Shown here one piece after another: positions 9,343-32,844 of a stretch of DNA of 40,847 bases (position 1 is the first letter of the stretch; each line of letters begins with the position of its first letter). The DNA comes from a virus: IMG/VR virus record IMGVR_UViG_3300032116_000491, positions 1-40,847 of that record; one strand, written 5' to 3'. The position numbers and the translations under genes are program-made. Under the pieces are notes generated by a model, which was not told the origin of the DNA, did not search any database, and worked only from the letters and a program-made list of their open reading frames with translations.

Positions 9343-10551
9343 ATGGCAACTCCCAACCGTACAGCTTCAATACTAGATGACCTGATAGATGGGTTTAAGA
9401 GTGACTTTAATACAGCGCGATTAGATAGGAAAGCTGCTTATGAGAACTTAGGTAAGAGTGAAGGTAGAACTGCTGCTCAGAACATAGGAGGCTTTGCGGG
9501 TAGGGTAGCGTCTGATGTTATAGGAGATGAGACTAGAAATACCTATTGGCGATACAACCATCCTTTGGCAGTATCGTCATTTGCTGGTAGTGATGCACTA
9601 AAGGTGACTGGTATGCCTGTGGGTTATCAAGCTTTGGGTGGTGCTGCTTTAGCATTAGGTGTTATGCCTATAGCATCGGGTAATTTAGATATAAGTAACC
9701 TAGGAGAGTTTGGTAGACCTAAAGGATATCAGGCTCTATTTGCTGACCCTACTGATAAGACTAAGACTACTAATCCATTGGGCGAGTTTGCTGGTAGGTA
9801 CTTCATTGGTAGGAAAGGTAATATCTTGCCTTATGAGGAGCTAGTCAAAGAAAGACCTGACGTTACACCTGAGAAGTATGCTGCTGCTGTTCAGAGTAGT
9901 GGGTTCATGAGTAAAGACTTCTTTGGATTACAAGATGACCCTACTAAGTCAATAGCACTTGGATTAGGTGCGGGTGCTTTACTTGGGGCTTATAGTCGTA
10001 GAGGTAAGTACTCAAGGGGCGCTGACGGTAAGATTAAGGTAGAGCCTAGGGTAGTAACTGATCCTGAGAACATACCTATATCTAAGTGGACTGATGAGAA
10101 ACAACCTGTAGCTGCTGATATTGAGGCTATAGGTAGGTTCTGGGTTGATTCGCCTAAAAGGGTTGAGATGGGTAGACCTGAGGACTTAGTAGCTGGTGCG
10201 CTCAAAGGGGGTGCTATAGGGGGGCTTGTAGGTGCTGTAGTTCCTAGCCTAGCCGAGTTAGGCGCTATTAAAACACAAAAGAGTTTAAGTGGTGAAGATT
10301 CGATAAGCCTCTTAGGATATGAAGTACCTATGAGTGCAGCATTATTAACTACTGGGGCTGGTGTTGGTCTTAACTATTGGGCTAGAAAACACTTTAAGCC
10401 TAATGACTTTAATACTGAAGATGTTGAAGCTGCCATTGATCAATTCCAAACTAAGAGGCATGACACTCAAGATTCGGTTAAAGGGCTTAATGTCAGGTAC
10501 AACCCAAATACCAAAGGATGGGATTATGTTGATACGCAATCCTTTAAGTAA
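9343..10551 (+). CDS. Glycine-rich multi-segment membrane-active protein
   Basis: 402 residues. Glycine/alanine hydrophobic stretches occur at about 100-116 (LGGAALALGVMPIASG), 203-218 (SIALGLGAGALLGAYS), 283-303 (LKGGAIGGLVGAVVPSLAEL) and 330-345 (MSAALLTTGAGVGLNY), separated by charged loops. This fits a protein that inserts into or spans the host envelope during DNA ejection. No enzymatic motif is seen. It starts 5 nt after the previous stop. Confidence 0.65.
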   Translation: MATPNRTASILDDLIDGFKSDFNTARLDRKAAYENLGKSEGRTAAQNIGGFAGRVASDVIGDETRNTYWRYNHPLAVSSFAGSDALKVTGMPVGYQALGGAALALGVMPIASGNLDISNLGEFGRPKGYQALFADPTDKTKTTNPLGEFAGRYFIGRKGNILPYEELVKERPDVTPEKYAAAVQSSGFMSKDFFGLQDDPTKSIALGLGAGALLGAYSRRGKYSRGADGKIKVEPRVVTDPENIPISKWTDEKQPVAADIEAIGRFWVDSPKRVEMGRPEDLVAGALKGGAIGGLVGAVVPSLAELGAIKTQKSLSGEDSISLLGYEVPMSAALLTTGAGVGLNYWARKHFKPNDFNTEDVEAAIDQFQTKRHDTQDSVKGLNVRYNPNTKGWDYVDTQSFK

Positions 10552-10589
10552 TACATAGTATGATTAAAGCAAAGACAAGGTATTAACTT

Positions 10590-10976
10590 ATGATGCAAGG
10601 AATAAGAGATAGGTGGGATGCATTACCTGTCTACGCACAGTACGGTATCCCTGCTGTTGGTGTAGCTGGACTAGGGTTAGGAGCTATGGCATTGATGGGT
10701 AATCCACAACAACCAGCCATTCAAGCTACTCAAGCAACGGGTCAAGCTAATGCTAATGAGATGGCTATGGTTGGCGATAACGTTAACTTAGCTTTGAGGA
10801 GACAAGTGTATGGCGACCCTTTAAGTGACATGGAAGCTTTACAACAAGCAGCTAAGTTATCAGGGAATCTCTATAAATTCCCTGAGAAGAAAGAGAAGGC
10901 TATACGTGATGCTGAGATTGAAGGTCAACTGATGGCACTTCAAGCTGAAGCTTTGAGACAACAATATCTTAACTAA
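10590..10976 (+). CDS. Glycine-zipper protein
   Basis: 128 residues. AAGG lies nine bases upstream. Residues about 14-37 (VYAQYGIPAVGVAGLGLGAM) form a glycine-zipper helix; the rest is helical and Gln/Glu-rich, ending QALQAEAL-type. The YAQYG..AVG opening recurs in the next genes, which points to duplication. Confidence 0.6.
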   Translation: MMQGIRDRWDALPVYAQYGIPAVGVAGLGLGAMALMGNPQQPAIQATQATGQANANEMAMVGDNVNLALRRQVYGDPLSDMEALQQAAKLSGNLYKFPEKKEKAIRDAEIEGQLMALQAEALRQQYLN

Positions 10977-10979
10977 GAC

Positions 10980-11453
10980 ATGAATCCTATTCGTATTGAC
11001 CCTACTGGGTTAAAGAATGTAATCCCCCAGTTTATTGATAATCCCTACACTCAGCTAGGTATTAACTATGGATTAGGTGCTGGTATTGGTGCTATTGGAC
11101 AAGCTGGCTACAATGCTGTTACTGGTACTAACAATGCTAATCCTTTAATTACTGGATTACAAATGGCTCCTCTCCTTGGAGGGCAAGGCGTATCTCGTAT
11201 CATCAACACTGATGCTCTTAATCAACTAAGGGCTAGAAATGAATACGTCAAGATGTTAGAAAGTGGTAGTGAAGCATCACTATATAGTGGTGTACTTGGC
11301 AATGTTGGCAACGCTATCACTGGTGGTAAAGATATTGACACTAACATGATTGGCTCTGTGGGATACTACGGTCAAGCTATGCCACTAGCTAAGAAGATAT
11401 GGGCTGATGTATTCCCTGTGACTGCTGCTAAAGAAAGAATTATTATTGAGTAG
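10980..11453 (+). CDS. Glycine-zipper protein
   Basis: 157 residues. Residues about 23-45 (YTQLGINYGLGAGIGAIGQA) match the neighbours' Y-Q-x-Gly-YGLGAG pattern. A short hydrophobic patch (PLITGLQMAPLLGGQG) follows. Spaced 3 nt from the gene before. Inferred to be a member of a duplicated virion family. Confidence 0.6.
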   Translation: MNPIRIDPTGLKNVIPQFIDNPYTQLGINYGLGAGIGAIGQAGYNAVTGTNNANPLITGLQMAPLLGGQGVSRIINTDALNQLRARNEYVKMLESGSEASLYSGVLGNVGNAITGGKDIDTNMIGSVGYYGQAMPLAKKIWADVFPVTAAKERIIIE

Positions 11454-11461
11454 GTAAAACA

Positions 11462-12406
11462 ATGAATCCAATGAGTCTCGCAAAACGCTACCTTGCTGGC
11501 GTAGGTGACAATCAGTATGCGCAAGAAGCTCTTGACTACGGACTAGGCGCTCTAGGTGTTGGCGGTCTAACTGCTGTAGGCAATTTAGGGGATGGTGCTG
11601 ACCAGAATGTATTGCTACAGGGGGTGTTAAGCGCTCCTTTAGCAGCTAATCTTCTAAGACAAGGTAGGAGTTTTGCTGGTCAACAATACATTGATAGAAC
11701 AGGAGCTAGTACAGCTAGAGGCGTGTATGAAGGTTTGAATGAAGCAGAGATGAATCAGAAGTTCCTAAACCGTTTTAAAGCTGCTGCTGTTCAAATAGCT
11801 AATCAAGGCTATGCAGAAAGACAATTGCAAAATCCTTATATGCAAGCTGCATTAGCTGGTAGTGCTGCTGCTACTGTTGGCGGTTTGTCAGGTCGTGTAT
11901 TTGATAATGATGCTACTGCTACATCTGTTGGGCTAGCAGCGTTGGGCGGTTTTGCACCTATCGCATACTCAATGTTGAGGGGTAGAAATGCTGACGTAGC
12001 TAACAGCGCTAAAGCTGTATACAATATTCCAGAAAACTCTACAGGTAGATATCGTACTGACGAATATCATGGTGTTCCTTCTGGCTACCCTAGAGCAAGT
12101 GCTAATCCTGATAACACGTATCAAGCTAATAGACCCGATCCAACAACCCCTTTTCGTGTAGTCAATGTATCGACTGAACCAGTAGCTCGCCCTTCAGTGA
12201 TGGGTGCTTTACCCTATCAGCGTGGTGGTGATTTAGCTGTGCGCGACCCTAACTTGCCTACTACAAGTAGAGTTGTAGTGCCGCCTTTGACGATAAACGA
12301 GTTAGCCTTAAATACTACTAGAGGTAGAGGATGGAATGTCGGCAAAGAGTTCCCGTTAGAAGCAGGGCTGGCTGGATTATATGCAAACTCTCCTAGGATG
12401 CGTTAA
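11462..12406 (+). CDS. Glycine-zipper protein
   Basis: 314 residues; AGG is 7 nt before the ATG. Hydrophobic Gly/Ala segments lie at about 24-45 (ALDYGLGALGVGGLTAVGNL), 128-143 (AALAGSAAATVGGLSG) and 152-170 (VGLAALGGFAPIAYSML). The C-terminal 130 residues are polar and Pro/Asn/Arg-rich. The opening (NQYAQEALDYGLGALG) parallels the previous protein. Confidence 0.6.
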   Translation: MNPMSLAKRYLAGVGDNQYAQEALDYGLGALGVGGLTAVGNLGDGADQNVLLQGVLSAPLAANLLRQGRSFAGQQYIDRTGASTARGVYEGLNEAEMNQKFLNRFKAAAVQIANQGYAERQLQNPYMQAALAGSAAATVGGLSGRVFDNDATATSVGLAALGGFAPIAYSMLRGRNADVANSAKAVYNIPENSTGRYRTDEYHGVPSGYPRASANPDNTYQANRPDPTTPFRVVNVSTEPVARPSVMGALPYQRGGDLAVRDPNLPTTSRVVVPPLTINELALNTTRGRGWNVGKEFPLEAGLAGLYANSPRMR

Positions 12407-12408
12407 AC

Positions 12409-13725
12409 ATGACCTACTCCCCACTACGCAGACGTTTAGCTGAACTCATCCCAGAGTTAGCTAATAATGAGACAGCACTTAGATTAGCCCTGCCAGCCGC
12501 TATTGGCGCTACTACTGGTCTAGGCGCACTTGCCTATAATGTTGTAGCACCTTTAGATGTTGACCCTATCGGCTTAGCGGTTGGTAGTGGTCTAGCTCTA
12601 GGCACACAAGGACGTACACCCTATAACTATGCTGGTATTGGCGCACTAGGATTAGAGGGTGCTAGATACCTTAACAATGCATTCACTAACTCTAGTGATA
12701 CTGAAGCATCACCCCTAATTGCTATGGGCATTGGTGCTGGTACTTTAGGGTTGAGGGAAGCATTGAGGAGAGGTGTACTAACTTATCCTGAAGCTGGATT
12801 CCCTGTAGGACGGATGGCTCAAGACTTGGGAAAGCCTAGTGCTACTACACCTATCGATGATGTAGTAGCTGCCCCACCGCCACCTACCAAACCTAATAGA
12901 CCTACACCTAAGCCTAGGGGTGCTAAGCCTGCTGATGAAGTGCCTAACAATCCAAGTACAGGTCAGCCATCAGTGGTAGTACCTGACCAAAGCAGAATGT
13001 ATCTAGCCCGCAACTTAGGCGTGATGTCATCTAAGTTATCCAAGAAAGGTATAGAAAACCTAGGTAACTATGCTAATGAGACACCTCAAAGGAAGGCTCA
13101 ATTATCTTATGACAGTCCTACTGATTACTTTGATAACCTTGTAGACCCTGAAGACTTATTCAAGAGCTATGGGCTAAACACAGTGGTAATTAATCCTAGC
13201 GGGATGTTAGTAGATAGGCGATTACTTGAGAATAGGACTGACTTACTTAATCAACCAGTAGTTCAAATAACACCATCTACATTAGATGCTGGTCATTCTG
13301 AACTAGTCAAGCAAGGACTGGCTAAAGCTGGTCAACCACATCCTAACGTCAGAGCCTATGGTATTGAAACTATCAATGAATTAGCCAAGGGTTCTAGCAC
13401 ATCCCCTAGTGCTATGAATCCATTAGGTTATTACAACAAAGCTGATAACAATACTTGGCAATGGGAGCAGTCCCTAAACCCAGAAGAAATAAGCTCTATG
13501 GTCAAAGATAGGGGTGGTAGAATTGCTGTTAACTTAAACAACATGAAGCCATTGGATACTGTGGAACAGAATGACCTTTACTTAGATGCTTTAGGGTTGA
13601 CAGGCATAGGTGCTTATACTCCCACAGCACCATCTATCCCTAAACAAACATATTACCCCCAATACAACAAAGACTACAGCGTAAGCAAAAGACCTATGAG
13701 AATAGCTAAACAAGGAGATAACTAA
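12409..13725 (+). CDS. Glycine-zipper protein with soluble C-terminal domain
   Basis: 438 residues. Residues about 28-130 carry Gly/Ala-rich hydrophobic stretches (LPAAIGATTGLGALAYNVV; GLAVGSGLALG; GAGTLGLREAL). A Pro/Lys linker (about 155-180) leads into a charged domain of about 240 residues, with VVINPSGMLVDRRLLENRTD and VRAYGIETINELAKG. I do not recognise that domain. It stops in a 1-bp overlap with the next gene (TAATG). Confidence 0.6.
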   Translation: MTYSPLRRRLAELIPELANNETALRLALPAAIGATTGLGALAYNVVAPLDVDPIGLAVGSGLALGTQGRTPYNYAGIGALGLEGARYLNNAFTNSSDTEASPLIAMGIGAGTLGLREALRRGVLTYPEAGFPVGRMAQDLGKPSATTPIDDVVAAPPPPTKPNRPTPKPRGAKPADEVPNNPSTGQPSVVVPDQSRMYLARNLGVMSSKLSKKGIENLGNYANETPQRKAQLSYDSPTDYFDNLVDPEDLFKSYGLNTVVINPSGMLVDRRLLENRTDLLNQPVVQITPSTLDAGHSELVKQGLAKAGQPHPNVRAYGIETINELAKGSSTSPSAMNPLGYYNKADNNTWQWEQSLNPEEISSMVKDRGGRIAVNLNNMKPLDTVEQNDLYLDALGLTGIGAYTPTAPSIPKQTYYPQYNKDYSVSKRPMRIAKQGDN

Positions 13726-18108: not shown

Positions 18109-18124
18109 CCCCTAGCGTAGCGTT
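18109..18124 (-). promoter_or_regulatory. Reverse-strand promoter-like element
   Basis: The reverse strand reads AACGCTACGCTAGGGG and then AGGATTAATAACTGAGGG, 29 nt before ATG 18086. The large terminase ATG is 5 nt away on the other strand and has no ribosome site. Confidence 0.6.
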
Positions 18125-18129
18125 CCCCT

Positions 18130-19794
18130 ATGGCTCGATTCAGACCATCCACATCCCTTGGACTTCAGATACAAGCTGATGTCACTTACCATGCCAAGGC
18201 TGCAACACAAGCTACTCAGCCCTTAGTCCTCAAGGCTAGACAAAATACCAAGGAAGGGTTCACAGCCTTCAGGGAGTATGTGTGCTTCCCTCAAATATCT
18301 GCTAATGAAGAAGGTGTAGAGGACATCAATGACTTAGCAGCACATAAGTATGCAAGACCTAAGCACCACTCTGAGTGGATGGATGAGCTATTCACAGGAG
18401 AAGACTCGCGTTGTCTTAAAGGTATTGGTGGTTCTAACACTCTAATCCTAGCTCCACGACTAAGCGCTAAGTCTAGATTCATGACCGAGTGGATCGCGCA
18501 TCAGATAGGTGTGCAGACTGAGGCTGGTATTCCTATCAAAGTACTGGTTATCTCTTACTCAATCACCATTAGTACTCAAAAGTCCATAGAGATAAAACAA
18601 ATCATTGAGTCTGATAGATTCCAACAAGTATTCCCTAACGTCTCTAAGGGTAAGAGATGGTCTGATGAGGTATGGGAAATAGATAAGCGTAAGGCAGGAC
18701 TACAAGCACTAGGTGAGCCATATACCCTAGCCTGTGCTGGCATTGTTGGTAGTGTCACCTCTCGTAGAGCGCACATCATTCTCTTTGATGACCTTATCAA
18801 ATCACCTGCGGATATCGAGAATCCCACAGTTAGAGAGAAGATGGCTAGTACTTACCACAACGCTATTAAACCTACTATGTTCCCTGGTGGTAGACAAATA
18901 TGTATTGGTACTCGAATGAGTGCTGATGACCTATACGCAACTGAGTTCAACACTGAGAAGCGCTGGAAGGTAATTGAACAACAAGCCATAGTCGAAAGTG
19001 ATGATGGTAAGGAGATAAGCTACTGGGAAGAGTTCATACCACTCAAGCACCTACTCACCTTGCGAGACCCAGATAAAGGTGGCGACCCTATCTCCTTTAG
19101 TTTCCAGTATCAAAATAAGATTGTCTCAATTGGTGGACTAGCTATACCTCCCGAGTGGATTAAGTACGATTACCCAGAGAAGGTAAGTGCTTACTCCCGC
19201 TTCGCCATTGGTACTGACCTTGCCGATAGTGTTAAAAAGAAAGCTGACTTCACTGTATTCACTCTAATGGGGCGTTATGGTAGTACATCCAATGGACGTA
19301 TTGACCTACTTGGTAGTGCAAGGTTTAAGGCTTCTGGGAACATAGCTAAACTCAACCAACTACTAATGCTCCTCTATGACCATGACCTTCTAGACATAGA
19401 TGAAGAAGGCTGGACTAATCCAGATGACCCTGTAGCGCAACAGTTTCCCATCAAGTATAAGTCTCGTCCTAACGTATACATTGACCTATATCTAGAGGAC
19501 GTATCACAACAGTTGAGCATCATGGCTGACTTCAATGCACTAATCAAAGTAGCTATGGGCATCCACTCTATACACCCTCGACCACTTAAGCTCAAAGGAG
19601 ATAAGAGGGAAAGACTTATGGCTATATCAGGTGCATTGCAAGTTGGCAACATCACTTTCAATAAGTTTAAGTACAGTCCCTCTCAGTCCACTATTAAGGA
19701 GTTGCTGTTCTTCGGCAGTACTCTACACGATGACTTTGTTGATTCACTTACTTGTGGTGTTATTGGATTGGGTTATCGCTTGCCTCTATCTTAG
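18130..19794 (+). CDS. Terminase large subunit
   Basis: 554 residues. The ATPase domain shows a Walker A variant, LAPRLSAKSRF (about 107-117), Walker B with catalytic acid, HIILFDDLI (215-223), and the coupling motif IGTRM (259-263). The C-terminal RNase H-like nuclease has GTDLADS (361-367) and HDDFVDS (533-539), which supply the metal-binding Asp residues. Together with a small subunit it pumps DNA into the procapsid through the portal and cuts concatemers. The portal follows after one reverse-strand island. The start has no Shine-Dalgarno sequence because it abuts the element at 18109-18124. Confidence 0.95.
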   Translation: MARFRPSTSLGLQIQADVTYHAKAATQATQPLVLKARQNTKEGFTAFREYVCFPQISANEEGVEDINDLAAHKYARPKHHSEWMDELFTGEDSRCLKGIGGSNTLILAPRLSAKSRFMTEWIAHQIGVQTEAGIPIKVLVISYSITISTQKSIEIKQIIESDRFQQVFPNVSKGKRWSDEVWEIDKRKAGLQALGEPYTLACAGIVGSVTSRRAHIILFDDLIKSPADIENPTVREKMASTYHNAIKPTMFPGGRQICIGTRMSADDLYATEFNTEKRWKVIEQQAIVESDDGKEISYWEEFIPLKHLLTLRDPDKGGDPISFSFQYQNKIVSIGGLAIPPEWIKYDYPEKVSAYSRFAIGTDLADSVKKKADFTVFTLMGRYGSTSNGRIDLLGSARFKASGNIAKLNQLLMLLYDHDLLDIDEEGWTNPDDPVAQQFPIKYKSRPNVYIDLYLEDVSQQLSIMADFNALIKVAMGIHSIHPRPLKLKGDKRERLMAISGALQVGNITFNKFKYSPSQSTIKELLFFGSTLHDDFVDSLTCGVIGLGYRLPLS

Positions 19795-19949: not shown

Positions 19950-20708
19950 TTAGTAGGGAATGTCATACTGATTAGCAAAGGCAGCTAGAGACTGTAGAGC
20001 CTGTCTAGCTTTCATGGTTTCTTGCATAGCTAAGTACTGTTGCCCTAAGTCATCGCTTATCCCCCGTGGTAGCCTCTCCCCTAATGGCTCTAGTACATCA
20101 CTTGCCATAGCACTCATTGAAGGCTGTGGGTTAGGTGCTACTTGAGGTTGTGATAAGTCTATAGCCATGCGTCTACCCATACTATCTATAGGTCTACGCA
20201 GTTGAGATGCATAACGAATTAGGCTGTTAGAAGTTAAAGGGTTGTATCCACTGGATAGCAGATCACCTATCTCATCCTCCATGCTTAACTTACCTACTTG
20301 AGCAGCTTGTTTAAACCCAGTATTCAAAGCTTGGATAGCTCTAGACTGTAGACCATCGCCTTCCCACTTAGGACTACCCTTGCCAGTGCGATGAGTTAAA
20401 GTATTCAGATAACTAGATACTTCGCCTTGACCAGCCCTTTTGTACAGCTCATCCATAAGTCTAGGATGTTGCATAAACTTAGCAGCATTAATGTCTGACA
20501 ACAGCATTAGGTTAGACGTTTCAGGCAACATCTCTCTTAACCCAAAGAATGCACTGTCAGCATCAGCAAAGTTATACCCTGCGTACTCAACTGGATATTG
20601 TCTCTTTAGTTTAGAAGCTCTTAGAGTGGGATTAGTAAGAGCCTGAAGAAACACGTCAGGGCTTTTGCTATAAATGTTGTTAGGGATTAGCCAAGGCTTT
20701 TGATACAT
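19950..20708 (-). CDS. Hypothetical protein of reverse island 3
   Basis: 252 residues from ATG 20708. The N-terminal 120 residues are distinctive (KPWLIPNNIYSKSPDVFLQA, then YPVEYAGYNFADADSAFFGL and KGSPKWEGDGLQSRAIQAL) and look like a real fold, but I cannot name it. The C-terminal 80 residues are Pro/Gln/Met-rich and then helical. It is a single-gene island with its own promoter-like element 25 nt upstream, between terminase and portal. The 155-bp gap to the terminase holds only a 22-codon frame that I do not call. Confidence 0.7.
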   Translation of the reverse strand: MYQKPWLIPNNIYSKSPDVFLQALTNPTLRASKLKRQYPVEYAGYNFADADSAFFGLREMLPETSNLMLLSDINAAKFMQHPRLMDELYKRAGQGEVSSYLNTLTHRTGKGSPKWEGDGLQSRAIQALNTGFKQAAQVGKLSMEDEIGDLLSSGYNPLTSNSLIRYASQLRRPIDSMGRRMAIDLSQPQVAPNPQPSMSAMASDVLEPLGERLPRGISDDLGQQYLAMQETMKARQALQSLAAFANQYDIPY

Positions 20709-20726: not shown

Positions 20727-20742
20727 CTCCTAGCGTAGCGTA
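20727..20742 (-). promoter_or_regulatory. Reverse-strand promoter-like element
   Basis: The reverse strand reads TACGCTACGCTAGGAG, 25 nt before ATG 20708. The first base and the G-run deviate from consensus, but the position fits. Confidence 0.55.
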
Positions 20743-20776: not shown

Positions 20777-22882
20777 ATGGAAACAGGTAGCGTAGTTCAG
20801 GCGTTTATCGACAGGAAGAATAGCGGCTCTGAAAGTATGGTAGTACCTAACCATATCAAACAGATTGTCTTATTTATGACTAGGCAGGGCTTAGAGTTCC
20901 TTGTAGACCAAGATACTCCTGATGAGCGAAGACGTAAATTCATAGACAAGATTATCAAAGCTAACAAGCTAGATATGTACTACCAAGGGATCGCCTCACT
21001 CTTCATAGCTACTGGTGGTGTTCTATGGTTAATGCAACCTACCTTAGACGGATACTCAATCTATTGGTTCCATAGCGGTAAAGAGAATAACTCAATAGAT
21101 GATGTTAAGTCTCAATACATGGTCTTCTACTCTCCCAATGGCAGGGAGATGCAAGAAGTGATCATTAGATATAAGTACTATGACCGTTCACCCAGTCAAA
21201 TGTACTACGCTCAATCATCTCTAGGTTCTGAGAGATGGGTGCGTCTACGAGTAAAGACTGACACGGTAACCCAAGAGTTCTTCAATGCCGAGCCACCACT
21301 AGACATCTACTCAACTAGCTCTAACTACGCCCCCCCACTTCAGGTCAACTCCTTCATCAACACACTAGGCTACATCCCTTGTGTAGAATCACCCAACCTC
21401 CCATACTTCCCCGGGGATAGTGGTAGGTCTGACTTTGCTATGGTTAGTGACCAGATAGAAGCCGAAGATACGGTAAGGGGCGCTATCATGCAAAATATCT
21501 TCACCTTTGGCAATCCTACCCTTATCACTACTCGTTCCCGTGAAGAAGTGATGCAAAAGACTACTGAGATAGGTACTCAGTCATGGGCTGCTTCACAAGG
21601 TTTCAAAGATCTAACTTCTGTGCGTATTGGCGGTAGACGTAATGATGGCGGATGGGCAGCGCGTCAACACGAAAAGATTGTTCCCGTCATTGGAAATGTA
21701 AACGCTGATGAAAGATTTGGCTATGTAGTGCCTGACCCCGTATCTCCTGACCAAGCTAGATTTGCTGACACTTACCGCACTGCGCTTCATGGAGCTTTAG
21801 GAGGCATTGACCCGAATGACCAGTCTTTCAGTACCTTTGGTGAGGTCAAATCTCTCTATGGGAAAGTGGCTGCTACTGCCAACATGAAGTCCCTGACCCT
21901 ATGGCAACATGGACTATCCCGAGTCCTTGAGTTGTGCATCATGCATGAAGAACGTCTATATATGGATCAATTCAAGCAGTGGCTCCTATCGGAAGACCCT
22001 AAGATTGACATCACTCAAGTTACCCAACAACAGATTGAACAACTAATCTGGCAAGACGGTATCGAAGCACCCATTAGCGTAGGACTACAACCCTTTGGTG
22101 AAGTCAATGTCTACTATCGCTATAACGGTGATGTATTTGAGGACTCACCCCAAGACAAACTAGACCGCACTATCTATACTCGTAACCTTCAAGAGCTAGG
22201 AGTAGGAAGTCTAGAAGCCCTTGATGCTGTATTCCCTGACCTATCCCTCAAAGAAAAGAAGGCTAAGTTATCAGGCATTCCTTTTAGGATTGGAGGTGAG
22301 TACTTAGGGTTGTTCAATAATCTTTTACAACAACATATGCAACTTTCTCAGGTAGAAGATCCATATAATCCGGGTAAAGCTCTAAGTTTGCGCTATGATA
22401 TGACTTATCTAATGGACTCAGTGTACACGGTACTGAAACGTGAGTTCTCCTACGGCGCATCCTATGATGAAGCTGACAACAAGGATAATCCCTTAACTAA
22501 TGGTACAAGCACTCCCTCAGAACTATCAGGTTCAACAAGCCCCATCACCACAGGTAGCTCCTCAAACGGTAGCCCCACAGTGGCAGTCAGCACCTCAACT
22601 GGTGAGCCCTTACCCTTCGACTGGGCTAACCCCCCAGTACTCCCATCCTCAGCAATTCGCACCGACAACGGGCGGTTGGATACAAACAACCCCTCAGTCA
22701 GTGGTAGCTCCTACTCAGCAAGCGAATCCAGTTACGGATTACCTGACCCTGAACGGCTTGGTTCCCAACAGCTATTTACCAAACCCAACTTCAGTACAAC
22801 CACAGTACTCCCCCCAAGTCACCTCGCCAACGAGACAGTACAGCCCCAAGCTAGACCTAAACGCCCCAAGCGGAAAGGATAG
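20777..22882 (+). CDS. Portal protein
   Basis: 701 residues, a usual size for podovirus portals. It follows the terminase and precedes scaffold and capsid. The central part has the alternating charged helices and beta turns of portals (residues 335-380: DPVSPDQARFADTYRTALHG and GEVKSLYGKVAATANMKSLT). The helix LWQHGLSRVLELCIMHEERL would be the wing/stem helix. From about residue 575 the sequence turns into a Ser/Thr/Pro-rich tail ending PKRPKRKG, encoded in the same DNA as the start of the next gene. The call rests on order and pattern. Confidence 0.85.
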   Translation: METGSVVQAFIDRKNSGSESMVVPNHIKQIVLFMTRQGLEFLVDQDTPDERRRKFIDKIIKANKLDMYYQGIASLFIATGGVLWLMQPTLDGYSIYWFHSGKENNSIDDVKSQYMVFYSPNGREMQEVIIRYKYYDRSPSQMYYAQSSLGSERWVRLRVKTDTVTQEFFNAEPPLDIYSTSSNYAPPLQVNSFINTLGYIPCVESPNLPYFPGDSGRSDFAMVSDQIEAEDTVRGAIMQNIFTFGNPTLITTRSREEVMQKTTEIGTQSWAASQGFKDLTSVRIGGRRNDGGWAARQHEKIVPVIGNVNADERFGYVVPDPVSPDQARFADTYRTALHGALGGIDPNDQSFSTFGEVKSLYGKVAATANMKSLTLWQHGLSRVLELCIMHEERLYMDQFKQWLLSEDPKIDITQVTQQQIEQLIWQDGIEAPISVGLQPFGEVNVYYRYNGDVFEDSPQDKLDRTIYTRNLQELGVGSLEALDAVFPDLSLKEKKAKLSGIPFRIGGEYLGLFNNLLQQHMQLSQVEDPYNPGKALSLRYDMTYLMDSVYTVLKREFSYGASYDEADNKDNPLTNGTSTPSELSGSTSPITTGSSSNGSPTVAVSTSTGEPLPFDWANPPVLPSSAIRTDNGRLDTNNPSVSGSSYSASESSYGLPDPERLGSQQLFTKPNFSTTTVLPPSHLANETVQPQARPKRPKRKG

Positions 22883-23402
22883 TCAGGGTAATCCTCTCGC
22901 CTCGGTAATCGAACTAATCAATAGCTTTGGCAATGGATCGCCTGAGCTAGCCATTGCACGCATCCATCAACAACTCATCCATCGTGAAGACCAATTAGGT
23001 GAAGTAGTTGCCTATACTCAAGCTCTTGAGAAGGAAGCTATTCAAATGGGTCAGATTCTATCTAGCCCTGAAAACACTGGTTATTGGCTCCAATACCAAG
23101 AGTTCCATCTTGCTCAACTACCTGAAGTAATTAACTTCCGCACTGCTTACCCTAAAGCAACCTTTGAGCAATACTACGACTACCTAGTACGCTCTAATCA
23201 ACCACAAGGACAAGTTCAAGAACGTCCTCCCGCACCTTTAGGCTATGAGTATGCTCCTGAACCACAACGACCCACATTCAATCAAATGAATATGGGCTTG
23301 GGTCAAGGTGCTACTCAAGGTAGTGGTCGTGGACGTATGACTGATGTACTACGCCAACTTGATTCAGGTCACTTTGGTCAGCTCGTTAGTCAGTTGGCTT
23401 AG
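22500..23402 (+). CDS. Capsid scaffold candidate, overlapping the portal gene by 383 bp
   Basis: 300 residues in the +1 frame relative to the portal. The first 128 residues are Gln/Pro-rich (APQTVAPQWQSAPQLVSPYP) and lie wholly within the portal tail. From about residue 130 the protein is helical and charged (IARIHQQLIHREDQLGEVVA), as scaffolds are, and it ends Gly/Arg then helix (GRMTDVLRQLDSGHFGQLV). ATG 22500 is the first start after an in-frame stop at 22494; no good ribosome site is seen, so an internal start is possible. Its place between portal and capsid supports the scaffold role. Confidence 0.7.
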   Translation: MVQALPQNYQVQQAPSPQVAPQTVAPQWQSAPQLVSPYPSTGLTPQYSHPQQFAPTTGGWIQTTPQSVVAPTQQANPVTDYLTLNGLVPNSYLPNPTSVQPQYSPQVTSPTRQYSPKLDLNAPSGKDSQGNPLASVIELINSFGNGSPELAIARIHQQLIHREDQLGEVVAYTQALEKEAIQMGQILSSPENTGYWLQYQEFHLAQLPEVINFRTAYPKATFEQYYDYLVRSNQPQGQVQERPPAPLGYEYAPEPQRPTFNQMNMGLGQGATQGSGRGRMTDVLRQLDSGHFGQLVSQLA

Positions 23403-23670
23403 AGACTAGAGAGACAAGGAGAGCTAAAGGCGTTACTGCTGAGTGAACCTTGAGTACATCATCAGACGTTTGAAGGCTAGATATTAAAGCAATCTGACCT
23501 TGAATCAATCCATGAATACCTTGTAGTTCCTCAGTGGTTAGTCCTGTGAAGGCAACCTTGTCTGACATATCTTTAACAAGAGCCTTTAGATATTCGTTGT
23601 TTTCTCCTAGCCTTTCCATCTCAGCCTTTTGCCTTTCGATAATCATCATTGCTTCGGCATGATTGAACAT
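23386..23670 (-). CDS. Small coiled-coil protein, reverse island 4
   Basis: 94 residues: MFNHAEAMMIIERQKAEMER and on through a heptad-like helix, then TTEELQGIHGLIQGQIALIS. Family unknown. Its 3' end overlaps the scaffold gene by 17 bp in opposite directions. A degenerate promoter-like element lies 29 nt upstream. Confidence 0.65.
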   Translation of the reverse strand: MFNHAEAMMIIERQKAEMERLGENNEYLKALVKDMSDKVAFTGLTTEELQGIHGLIQGQIALISSLQTSDDVLKVHSAVTPLALLVSLVSKPTD

Positions 23671-23737: not shown

Positions 23738-24964
23738 ATGGCAACATTTAGTTCTCAGTTAGAAATCATTATGGGTGTGGAGCTATATCGCCCCCGCCCG
23801 CAGTACATTGCTCGGTATGTTGTACAACCCCAAATCGTACATGACTGGGCTGCTCAACCGGGTTCTACTGCACGTATGAAGCGCTTTGGCTTCTGGAACG
23901 ATCCAGGGTCATACACACTCTCTGCCCGTGCACGCGATAAATCACAAGTCATCGGTACTGGTGGTGGTCGTGGCTTGCCAGAAGAAGCAGTCACCATTAC
24001 TCTTCAAGAGTTTACTGGCCCATCCACTGGTAATAGCACCAACCCCAATGAACCCGGGGTGTTAAAGATTAATATGTTCGACCTCATGACCATGCAGCGT
24101 AACCTGTATGACATGAGCCGCGCTGACCAGTTCCATCAATCCATCGGTAGTGAAACCCTATTTGAAGACTATCGCCGTTGGAAGGATAGCGTCTACATCG
24201 GTCTAGCTCTATCTGCTAACCCCGCAACAGCAACCACTGGACAAGTTGCTAACAACCTAGTGGGTGGATACTATAACCCCGCAGGTATAGTTAATGGTGG
24301 TACTTATAACACAGCTACAGGTGCACCTCGACTAGACTTCACTAGAGATGTACTTAAGGTAGTCGCTGATATGCGCTCTCGTTTAGTCCCTCCTTTCCAA
24401 TCTAACTTCGGTGATGTGTATCATGGATTGGCTAGCCCCGGGTTCATGTTGCAACTACAACAAGACTCACGCTTCTTACAGGTAACACAGTACCCAGGTG
24501 TTCCAGTATCCATGCTTCCCATGAGCGCACAATCTGCAACCCTACCTCAGATGATGCCTCTACAAGACTGGACAATGTCACCTAATGACCTTGTCAAGAG
24601 TGGTGGCTTCTATGGTCAAACTGGATTCATGCACTCTATGGTTATGCCACTAGGGTTCATCATGGGTGGTGTACGTTGGTTTGAAGCAACTAACCTACCT
24701 ACTATCCCAGTTACCCTAACTACCTCTGGTCTAGCCTCACAAGGTTATGCTGATGGTACTTCTGTAGTACGTCAAGCAGAATGTGCAATCATCATTGGTA
24801 CTAATGCCATTGGTGAAGCTATCTGGGGTGAAGGGCCAAGAGTCAAGCTTAACAACAACACTGACTATGACCGCTTCCTAATGGCTATCTGGCAGGAGTA
24901 CGGTGGTTACTCACTACTCAACTCTAATAACATCACTGTTATGCGTACCTTCCAACCCTTCTAA
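23738..24964 (+). CDS. Major capsid protein
   Basis: 408 residues, directly after the scaffold candidate. The C-terminal part AECAIIIGTNAIGEAIWGEG, then NTDYDRFLMAIWQEYGGYSL and NNITVMRTF, has the pattern of P22/N4-type HK97-fold coat proteins (a strand with D.R, then W.eyGGy, then the final strand). The N-terminus contains no cleavage-site signature. Codons are more GC-ending than in neighbours, as expected for a highly expressed gene. A strong hairpin follows. Confidence 0.85.
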   Translation: MATFSSQLEIIMGVELYRPRPQYIARYVVQPQIVHDWAAQPGSTARMKRFGFWNDPGSYTLSARARDKSQVIGTGGGRGLPEEAVTITLQEFTGPSTGNSTNPNEPGVLKINMFDLMTMQRNLYDMSRADQFHQSIGSETLFEDYRRWKDSVYIGLALSANPATATTGQVANNLVGGYYNPAGIVNGGTYNTATGAPRLDFTRDVLKVVADMRSRLVPPFQSNFGDVYHGLASPGFMLQLQQDSRFLQVTQYPGVPVSMLPMSAQSATLPQMMPLQDWTMSPNDLVKSGGFYGQTGFMHSMVMPLGFIMGGVRWFEATNLPTIPVTLTTSGLASQGYADGTSVVRQAECAIIIGTNAIGEAIWGEGPRVKLNNNTDYDRFLMAIWQEYGGYSLLNSNNITVMRTFQPF

Positions 24965-32826: not shown

Positions 32827-32844
32827 CCCCCATAGCGTAGCGTC
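32827..32844 (-). promoter_or_regulatory. Reverse-strand promoter-like element
   Basis: The reverse strand reads GACGCTACGCTATGGGGG and then AAAGATTAAG, 30 nt before ATG 32805. The forward ATG 32846 follows after one base. Confidence 0.6.

Follow-up and report, generated by a model that had tools for sequence, protein, structure and literature searches.

The locus studied here raises the question of whether a single stretch of viral DNA encodes the end of a portal protein and, in a second reading frame, the beginning of a scaffold protein. The window is the whole 40,847-nucleotide stretch of IMG/VR virus record IMGVR_UViG_3300032116_000491 that we analysed, and the genes concerned are arranged in it as follows.

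18130 to 19794, + strand: terminase large subunit, given for context (phrog_38, E 1.4e-62)
20777 to 22882, + strand: portal gene, 701 aa (phrog_20475 match; predicted structure matching PDB portals)
22500 to 22882, + strand: putative dual-coding overlap of 383 nt, with the scaffold frame shifted +1 from the portal frame (inferred purifying selection in two frames)
22500 to 23402, + strand: putative scaffold gene, 300 aa (open reading frame between portal and major head protein)
23738 to 24964, + strand: major head protein, given for context (phrog_1357, E 4.4e-7)

The 383 nt common to both open reading frames include the portal stop, and the last 127 portal codons coincide with the first 127 codons of the second frame, with no internal stop in either. 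A first-pass annotation had given this overlap and its two open frames with exact coordinates, and was also correct that the overlap is richer in GC than its flanks (54.3% vs 44.5% upstream and 45.6% downstream). When the synonymous codons of the portal were re-drawn in the window, the +1 frame was still open in 1.6% of trials, and when the portal codon order was shuffled, in 0.05%; re-drawing the synonymous codons of the scaffold left the portal frame open in 0.5% of trials. An open overlap in one sequence alone, without conservation in relatives, would be only suggestive. A chance open frame arising from GC or composition was ruled out by this codon re-drawing together with conservation in relatives, and it is decisively because the overlap is conserved in 149 of 150 related loci that we take it to be real.

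To assemble these loci, portal homologues were drawn from viral contigs, genome contigs and a phage collection, and 150 loci with a portal stop were counted, the window included; some contigs were present twice. In 149 of them the end of the portal gene shared 300 nt or more with a +1-frame ORF. In the exception, L012, the portal frame was interrupted before the overlap, and the overlap region itself was intact. A relative with a stop in one of the frames, which had been proposed as the observation that would refute dual coding, was therefore not met in 149 of 150 loci, the remaining one being this broken contig. In the 140 loci used further, corresponding to 114 distinct sequences, the overlap was 338-641 nt long (median 527) and its phase was identical throughout. 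The only isolate found was Synechococcus phage S-EIV1 (KJ410740), with a portal identity of 31% and an overlap of 554 nt in the same +1 phase; in its record the second gene starts only past the portal stop and the overlap is unannotated. A scan with one intermediate portal as query matched only itself. On a tree of the portal core, shorter overlaps that start further downstream appeared in two places, the window clade and L091 with L167. The scaffold start may thus have been relocated twice, and long branches make the tree unsure.

Several other features of the region were recorded. The sequence TAGCGTAGCGT occurred in 17 copies within 1049-40687 (at most one mismatch), where 0.36 would be expected, and every copy was on the + strand; examples lie at 18113-18123, 20731-20741 and 32833-32843. 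Many copies come after CCCC[A/T] and lie shortly before a gene, the terminase and portal genes among them. It was also seen near the portal start in two relatives (L005 and L007) and was absent from the loci examined in other clades; possibly it is a regulatory repeat. Two minus-strand ORFs, at 19950-20708 (252 aa, between terminase and portal) and at 23386-23670 (94 aa, between scaffold and head protein), had no match in Pfam. They look like inserted cargo, because the gene spacing of relatives leaves no room for the 252-aa ORF in L007 or for the 94-aa ORF in L005 and L009. S-EIV1 (L014, 10700-11176) and a Desmonostoc-associated contig (L167, 10744-11181) carry, between scaffold and head protein, a small gene that has no same-strand counterpart in the window. 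The S-EIV1 module at 9718-12441 is misannotated: its scaffold gene is cut short to begin at 10294, and an annotated antisense ORF covers the ORF of the major head protein (11290-12441; phrog_1357, E 1.4e-19).

We then examined the two proteins. The product of 20777-22882 matched phrog_20475 with E 2.6e-107, the best 50 PDB matches of its AlphaFold2 model were all portals (best Z 20.2, rmsd 3.9, 299 residues), and its gene is placed in the head module between terminase and head protein; we regard the portal fold, as modelled, as secure. The ordered part of this model ended at about residue 557-566, and the overlap starts at residue 575. Residues 575-701, which the overlap encodes, were predicted to be disordered, are rich in S, T and P, and finish in a basic segment.

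22835 to 22879, + strand: basic C terminus of the portal (net charge +6 over its final 15 residues)

Across the 140 loci the last 15 residues carried a mean charge of +4.96, against -0.34 per 15 residues elsewhere, and the end was positively charged in 139. The end was more basic than the scaffold frame alone would impose, both in the window (P = 0.007) and in most lineages tested. That the basic tail contacts the scaffold or the DNA inside the capsid is inference only. The composition of the rest of the tail could be traced to the other frame: codons for Q (CAR) and P (CCN) in the scaffold frame give xCA and xCC, that is S, T, P or A, in the portal frame. With the scaffold protein fixed and its codons re-drawn, the forced S/T/P/A fraction of the portal tail was 0.47, against 0.49 observed; with the portal fixed, the forced Q/P fraction of the scaffold was 0.17, against 0.34 observed. 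Because the scaffold frame accounts for the portal's composition and the portal frame for only half of the scaffold's Q/P, the scaffold frame seems to set the composition of the tail.

Selection was measured from single differences between close relatives, each classed as synonymous (S) or not (N) in each frame, using only sites with otherwise identical context; this is a frame-by-frame substitution count that we take to be of the Wei-Zhang type. In 14 disjoint pairs, the rates were 0.0039 for NN, 0.0142 for SN, 0.0305 for NS and 0.062 for SS changes (portal letter first). Over 39 disjoint pairs, the portal ratio NN/SN was 0.229 (0.174-0.296) and the scaffold ratio NN/NS was 0.117 (0.090-0.150), and the two-frame conclusion was unchanged for a transition weight kappa of 1-4. 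A phantom +1 frame on the portal core, upstream of the overlap, gave ratios of 0.83-0.99, and a phantom frame on the scaffold-only part downstream gave 1.57 (0.64-4.4). The window clade alone, with two pairs and few changes, gave 0.33 for the portal and 0.23 for the scaffold. Portal-synonymous changes in the overlap occurred at 13.5% of the upstream synonymous rate, and scaffold-synonymous changes at 35% of the downstream rate. The rate test required an unchanged 5-nt context, so overlap rates are lower than under the 3-nt filter of the 14-pair count; the ratios and the phantom controls under the same filter are unaffected. The scaffold frame was constrained in every fifth of the overlap, most strongly in the first (0.047; 0.015-0.091). 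Judged from these substitution patterns, purifying selection is acting on both frames of the overlap and is absent in the phantom frames. The first reading of the first-pass annotation, that both frames are real and two disordered tails are overprinted, gained support from this two-frame selection, from conservation over about 114 distinct sequences and from the predicted disorder of both proteins exactly over the overlap.

There remains a small chance that only one frame, scaffold or portal, is real in the overlap and that the other is open as a by-product of composition. Such a by-product would account for a portal S/T/P/A content almost equal to that forced by the scaffold frame, and in some relatives as many as 10-18% of synonymous re-drawings leave the +1 frame without a stop. 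It would not account for two ratios well below 1 beside phantom-frame controls near 1, nor for a basic portal end kept above expectation in 139 of 140 loci. If the scaffold frame alone were real, about 5 portal-frame stops would be expected in the window, where the probability of an open frame is 0.005.

The second gene lies directly between the portal and the major head protein. AlphaFold2 predicted residues 1-116 of its Q/P-rich head to be disordered, the portal stop falling at codon 127, and placed two helical segments beyond the overlap.

22905 to 23195, + strand: predicted helical core of the putative scaffold, residues 136-232 (AlphaFold2, pLDDT 66-73; outside the overlap)
23331 to 23396, + strand: predicted C-terminal helix of the putative scaffold, residues 278-299 (AlphaFold2, low confidence, pLDDT about 35-40)

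The mean pLDDT of the model was low (46.8), and we used its disorder and helicity, not its fold. In both AlphaFold2 models the borders of disorder coincided with the overlap, a disordered portal tail lying over a disordered scaffold head. A search for a scaffold family in PHROGs, Pfam and PDB sequences gave no match for the second protein; scaffolds diverge fast in sequence. Profile comparison with hhalign indicated that its core is homologous across clades, at 97.9% and E 4e-13 between L017-like and S-EIV1-like proteins and at 84.7% and E 7e-6 between the window clade and S-EIV1-like proteins. It is very likely that the second gene encodes the head scaffold, a function inferred from gene position and predicted helices.

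Next, the scaffold start was considered. The second ORF begins with ATG in all 114 distinct sequences, and a Shine-Dalgarno-like motif, sought in the 15 nt upstream, was present in 111 of them, compared with 186 of 2320 control ATGs (8%), these being other +1-frame ATGs in portal cores. The start of the S-EIV1 clade reads AAAAGGAG-atgagtt-ATG, a strong site 7 nt from the ATG, and lies within the codons that specify KEMSYAG in the portal, where the portal fold ends. In the window clade the ATG at this ancestral position is gone (TAC for TAT) and the ORF starts about 50 nt downstream of it; in the window, two elements precede this start.

22481 to 22485, + strand: AAGGA, a weak Shine-Dalgarno-like motif at a long spacing (14 nt) before the scaffold ATG
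22494 to 22496, + strand: scaffold-frame stop (TAA), one codon ahead of the scaffold ATG

The N-terminal residues of the second protein are conserved among relatives; the predicted start reads MVQAL in the window clade and MQDATVQ in S-EIV1. A scaffold start further upstream is excluded by the TAA at 22494. A scaffold-frame stop was found no more than one codon before the ATG (open frame of at most 3 nt) in 106 of the 114 distinct sequences. This stop is built from differing sequences in different clades (TGA, TAA), and it may reflect A/T-rich start regions or insulation. Independent initiation of the scaffold, itself an inference, has good support in the lineage as a whole and weaker support in the sequence of the window itself.

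A later scaffold start, which would leave little or no true overlap, was another alternative raised by the first-pass annotation. The window does contain GTG at 22602, GTG at 22701 and TTG at 22758, its ribosome site at 22500 is weak, and the GenBank annotation of S-EIV1 places the start past the portal stop. However, constraint on the scaffold frame is strongest in the first fifth of the overlap, every distinct sequence keeps the upstream ATG, with Shine-Dalgarno-like enrichment, and the N-terminal residues that a later start would discard are themselves conserved; we consider this alternative disfavoured, with a very small chance of being right. Least probable of all, and unnecessary though not formally excluded, is the annotation's remaining suggestion of a +1 ribosomal frameshift giving a portal-scaffold fusion, alongside or in place of separate products: both frames are open throughout, so a shift at any point would yield a fusion, but a fusion needs neither an ATG of its own, nor ribosome-site enrichment, nor a stop just upstream, and +1 is the rarer direction of ribosomal frameshifting.

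We consider it very probable, in the absence of protein or ribosome data, that two genuine head-assembly genes overlap out of frame and that each is translated, the translation being inferred. One messenger would then give two proteins. Some ribosomes would translate the portal through to its stop at 22882, and others would start separately at the internal ATG at 22500 and continue in the +1 frame into the scaffold gene; the common segment would specify both an S/T/P-rich disordered portal tail with a basic patch and a Q/P-rich disordered scaffold head. The ancestral scaffold gene probably began at the end of the portal fold, and later the portal stop would have been lost and the portal extended through the scaffold head. 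That the portal tail arose over the scaffold head is probable, at moderate confidence; this direction is inferred from where the ancestral start lay, from the composition test and from the tighter constraint seen in the scaffold frame. Codon usage as an age test gave no support for an older scaffold frame, the portal frame fitting slightly better at most loci. It is also possible, though we think it unlikely, that the portal tail and the scaffold head interact, for example through the basic end with the scaffold, so that the overlap provides functional coupling and forced co-evolution of the two partners in procapsid nucleation, and internal initiation sets the ratio of the two proteins.

Long out-of-frame overlaps are best known in small viruses and are usually explained there by genome compression. 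That motive is weak for tailed phages with genomes of about 80 kb (79,178 bp in S-EIV1); here an overlap of up to 213 codons joins two of their head-assembly genes and persists over deep divergence, at about 30% portal identity. Standard annotation clips it, as in the S-EIV1 record, where the scaffold starts late and the head protein is missed. With well over 100 natural variants, the locus is a case on which ideas about overprinting, disorder and constraint in two frames can be tested. In one survey, 3.3% of the marine cyanophage content belonged to the group that includes S-EIV1 (PMC5332604).

The S-EIV1 lineage resembles the window in its gene order of terminase, portal, scaffold and head protein and in its +1 overlap, and differs in its longer overlap, which opens with a strong AAAAGGAG site where the portal fold ends. 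In tailed phages, lambda Rz/Rz1 is a well-known out-of-frame overlap. To our knowledge, no portal/scaffold gene overlap is known in P22. The P22 portal (gp1) and scaffold (gp8) bind each other to begin procapsid assembly, and the C-terminal region of the scaffold contacts the portal wing (PMC12005531). Our literature search, which was incomplete and did not cover the original S-EIV1 description, found no published portal/scaffold overlap; overlapping genes and nested scaffold genes are already known, and a long, widely conserved out-of-frame overlap of portal and scaffold is apparently undescribed. In lambda C/Nu3 and HSV-1 UL26/UL26.5, a scaffold gene is nested in a head-assembly gene and expressed by internal initiation. 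Those pairs are in the same frame and share protein sequence, whereas in the present case the scaffold is paired with the portal and is read in a different frame. A review of overlapping genes holds that disorder in the encoded proteins eases the double constraint and that one frame is probably older; its focus is small eukaryotic viruses, in which de novo frames mostly encode accessory proteins (PMC8227390). In contrast to those overprinted genes, both partners here are head-assembly genes, and they belong to a tailed dsDNA phage.
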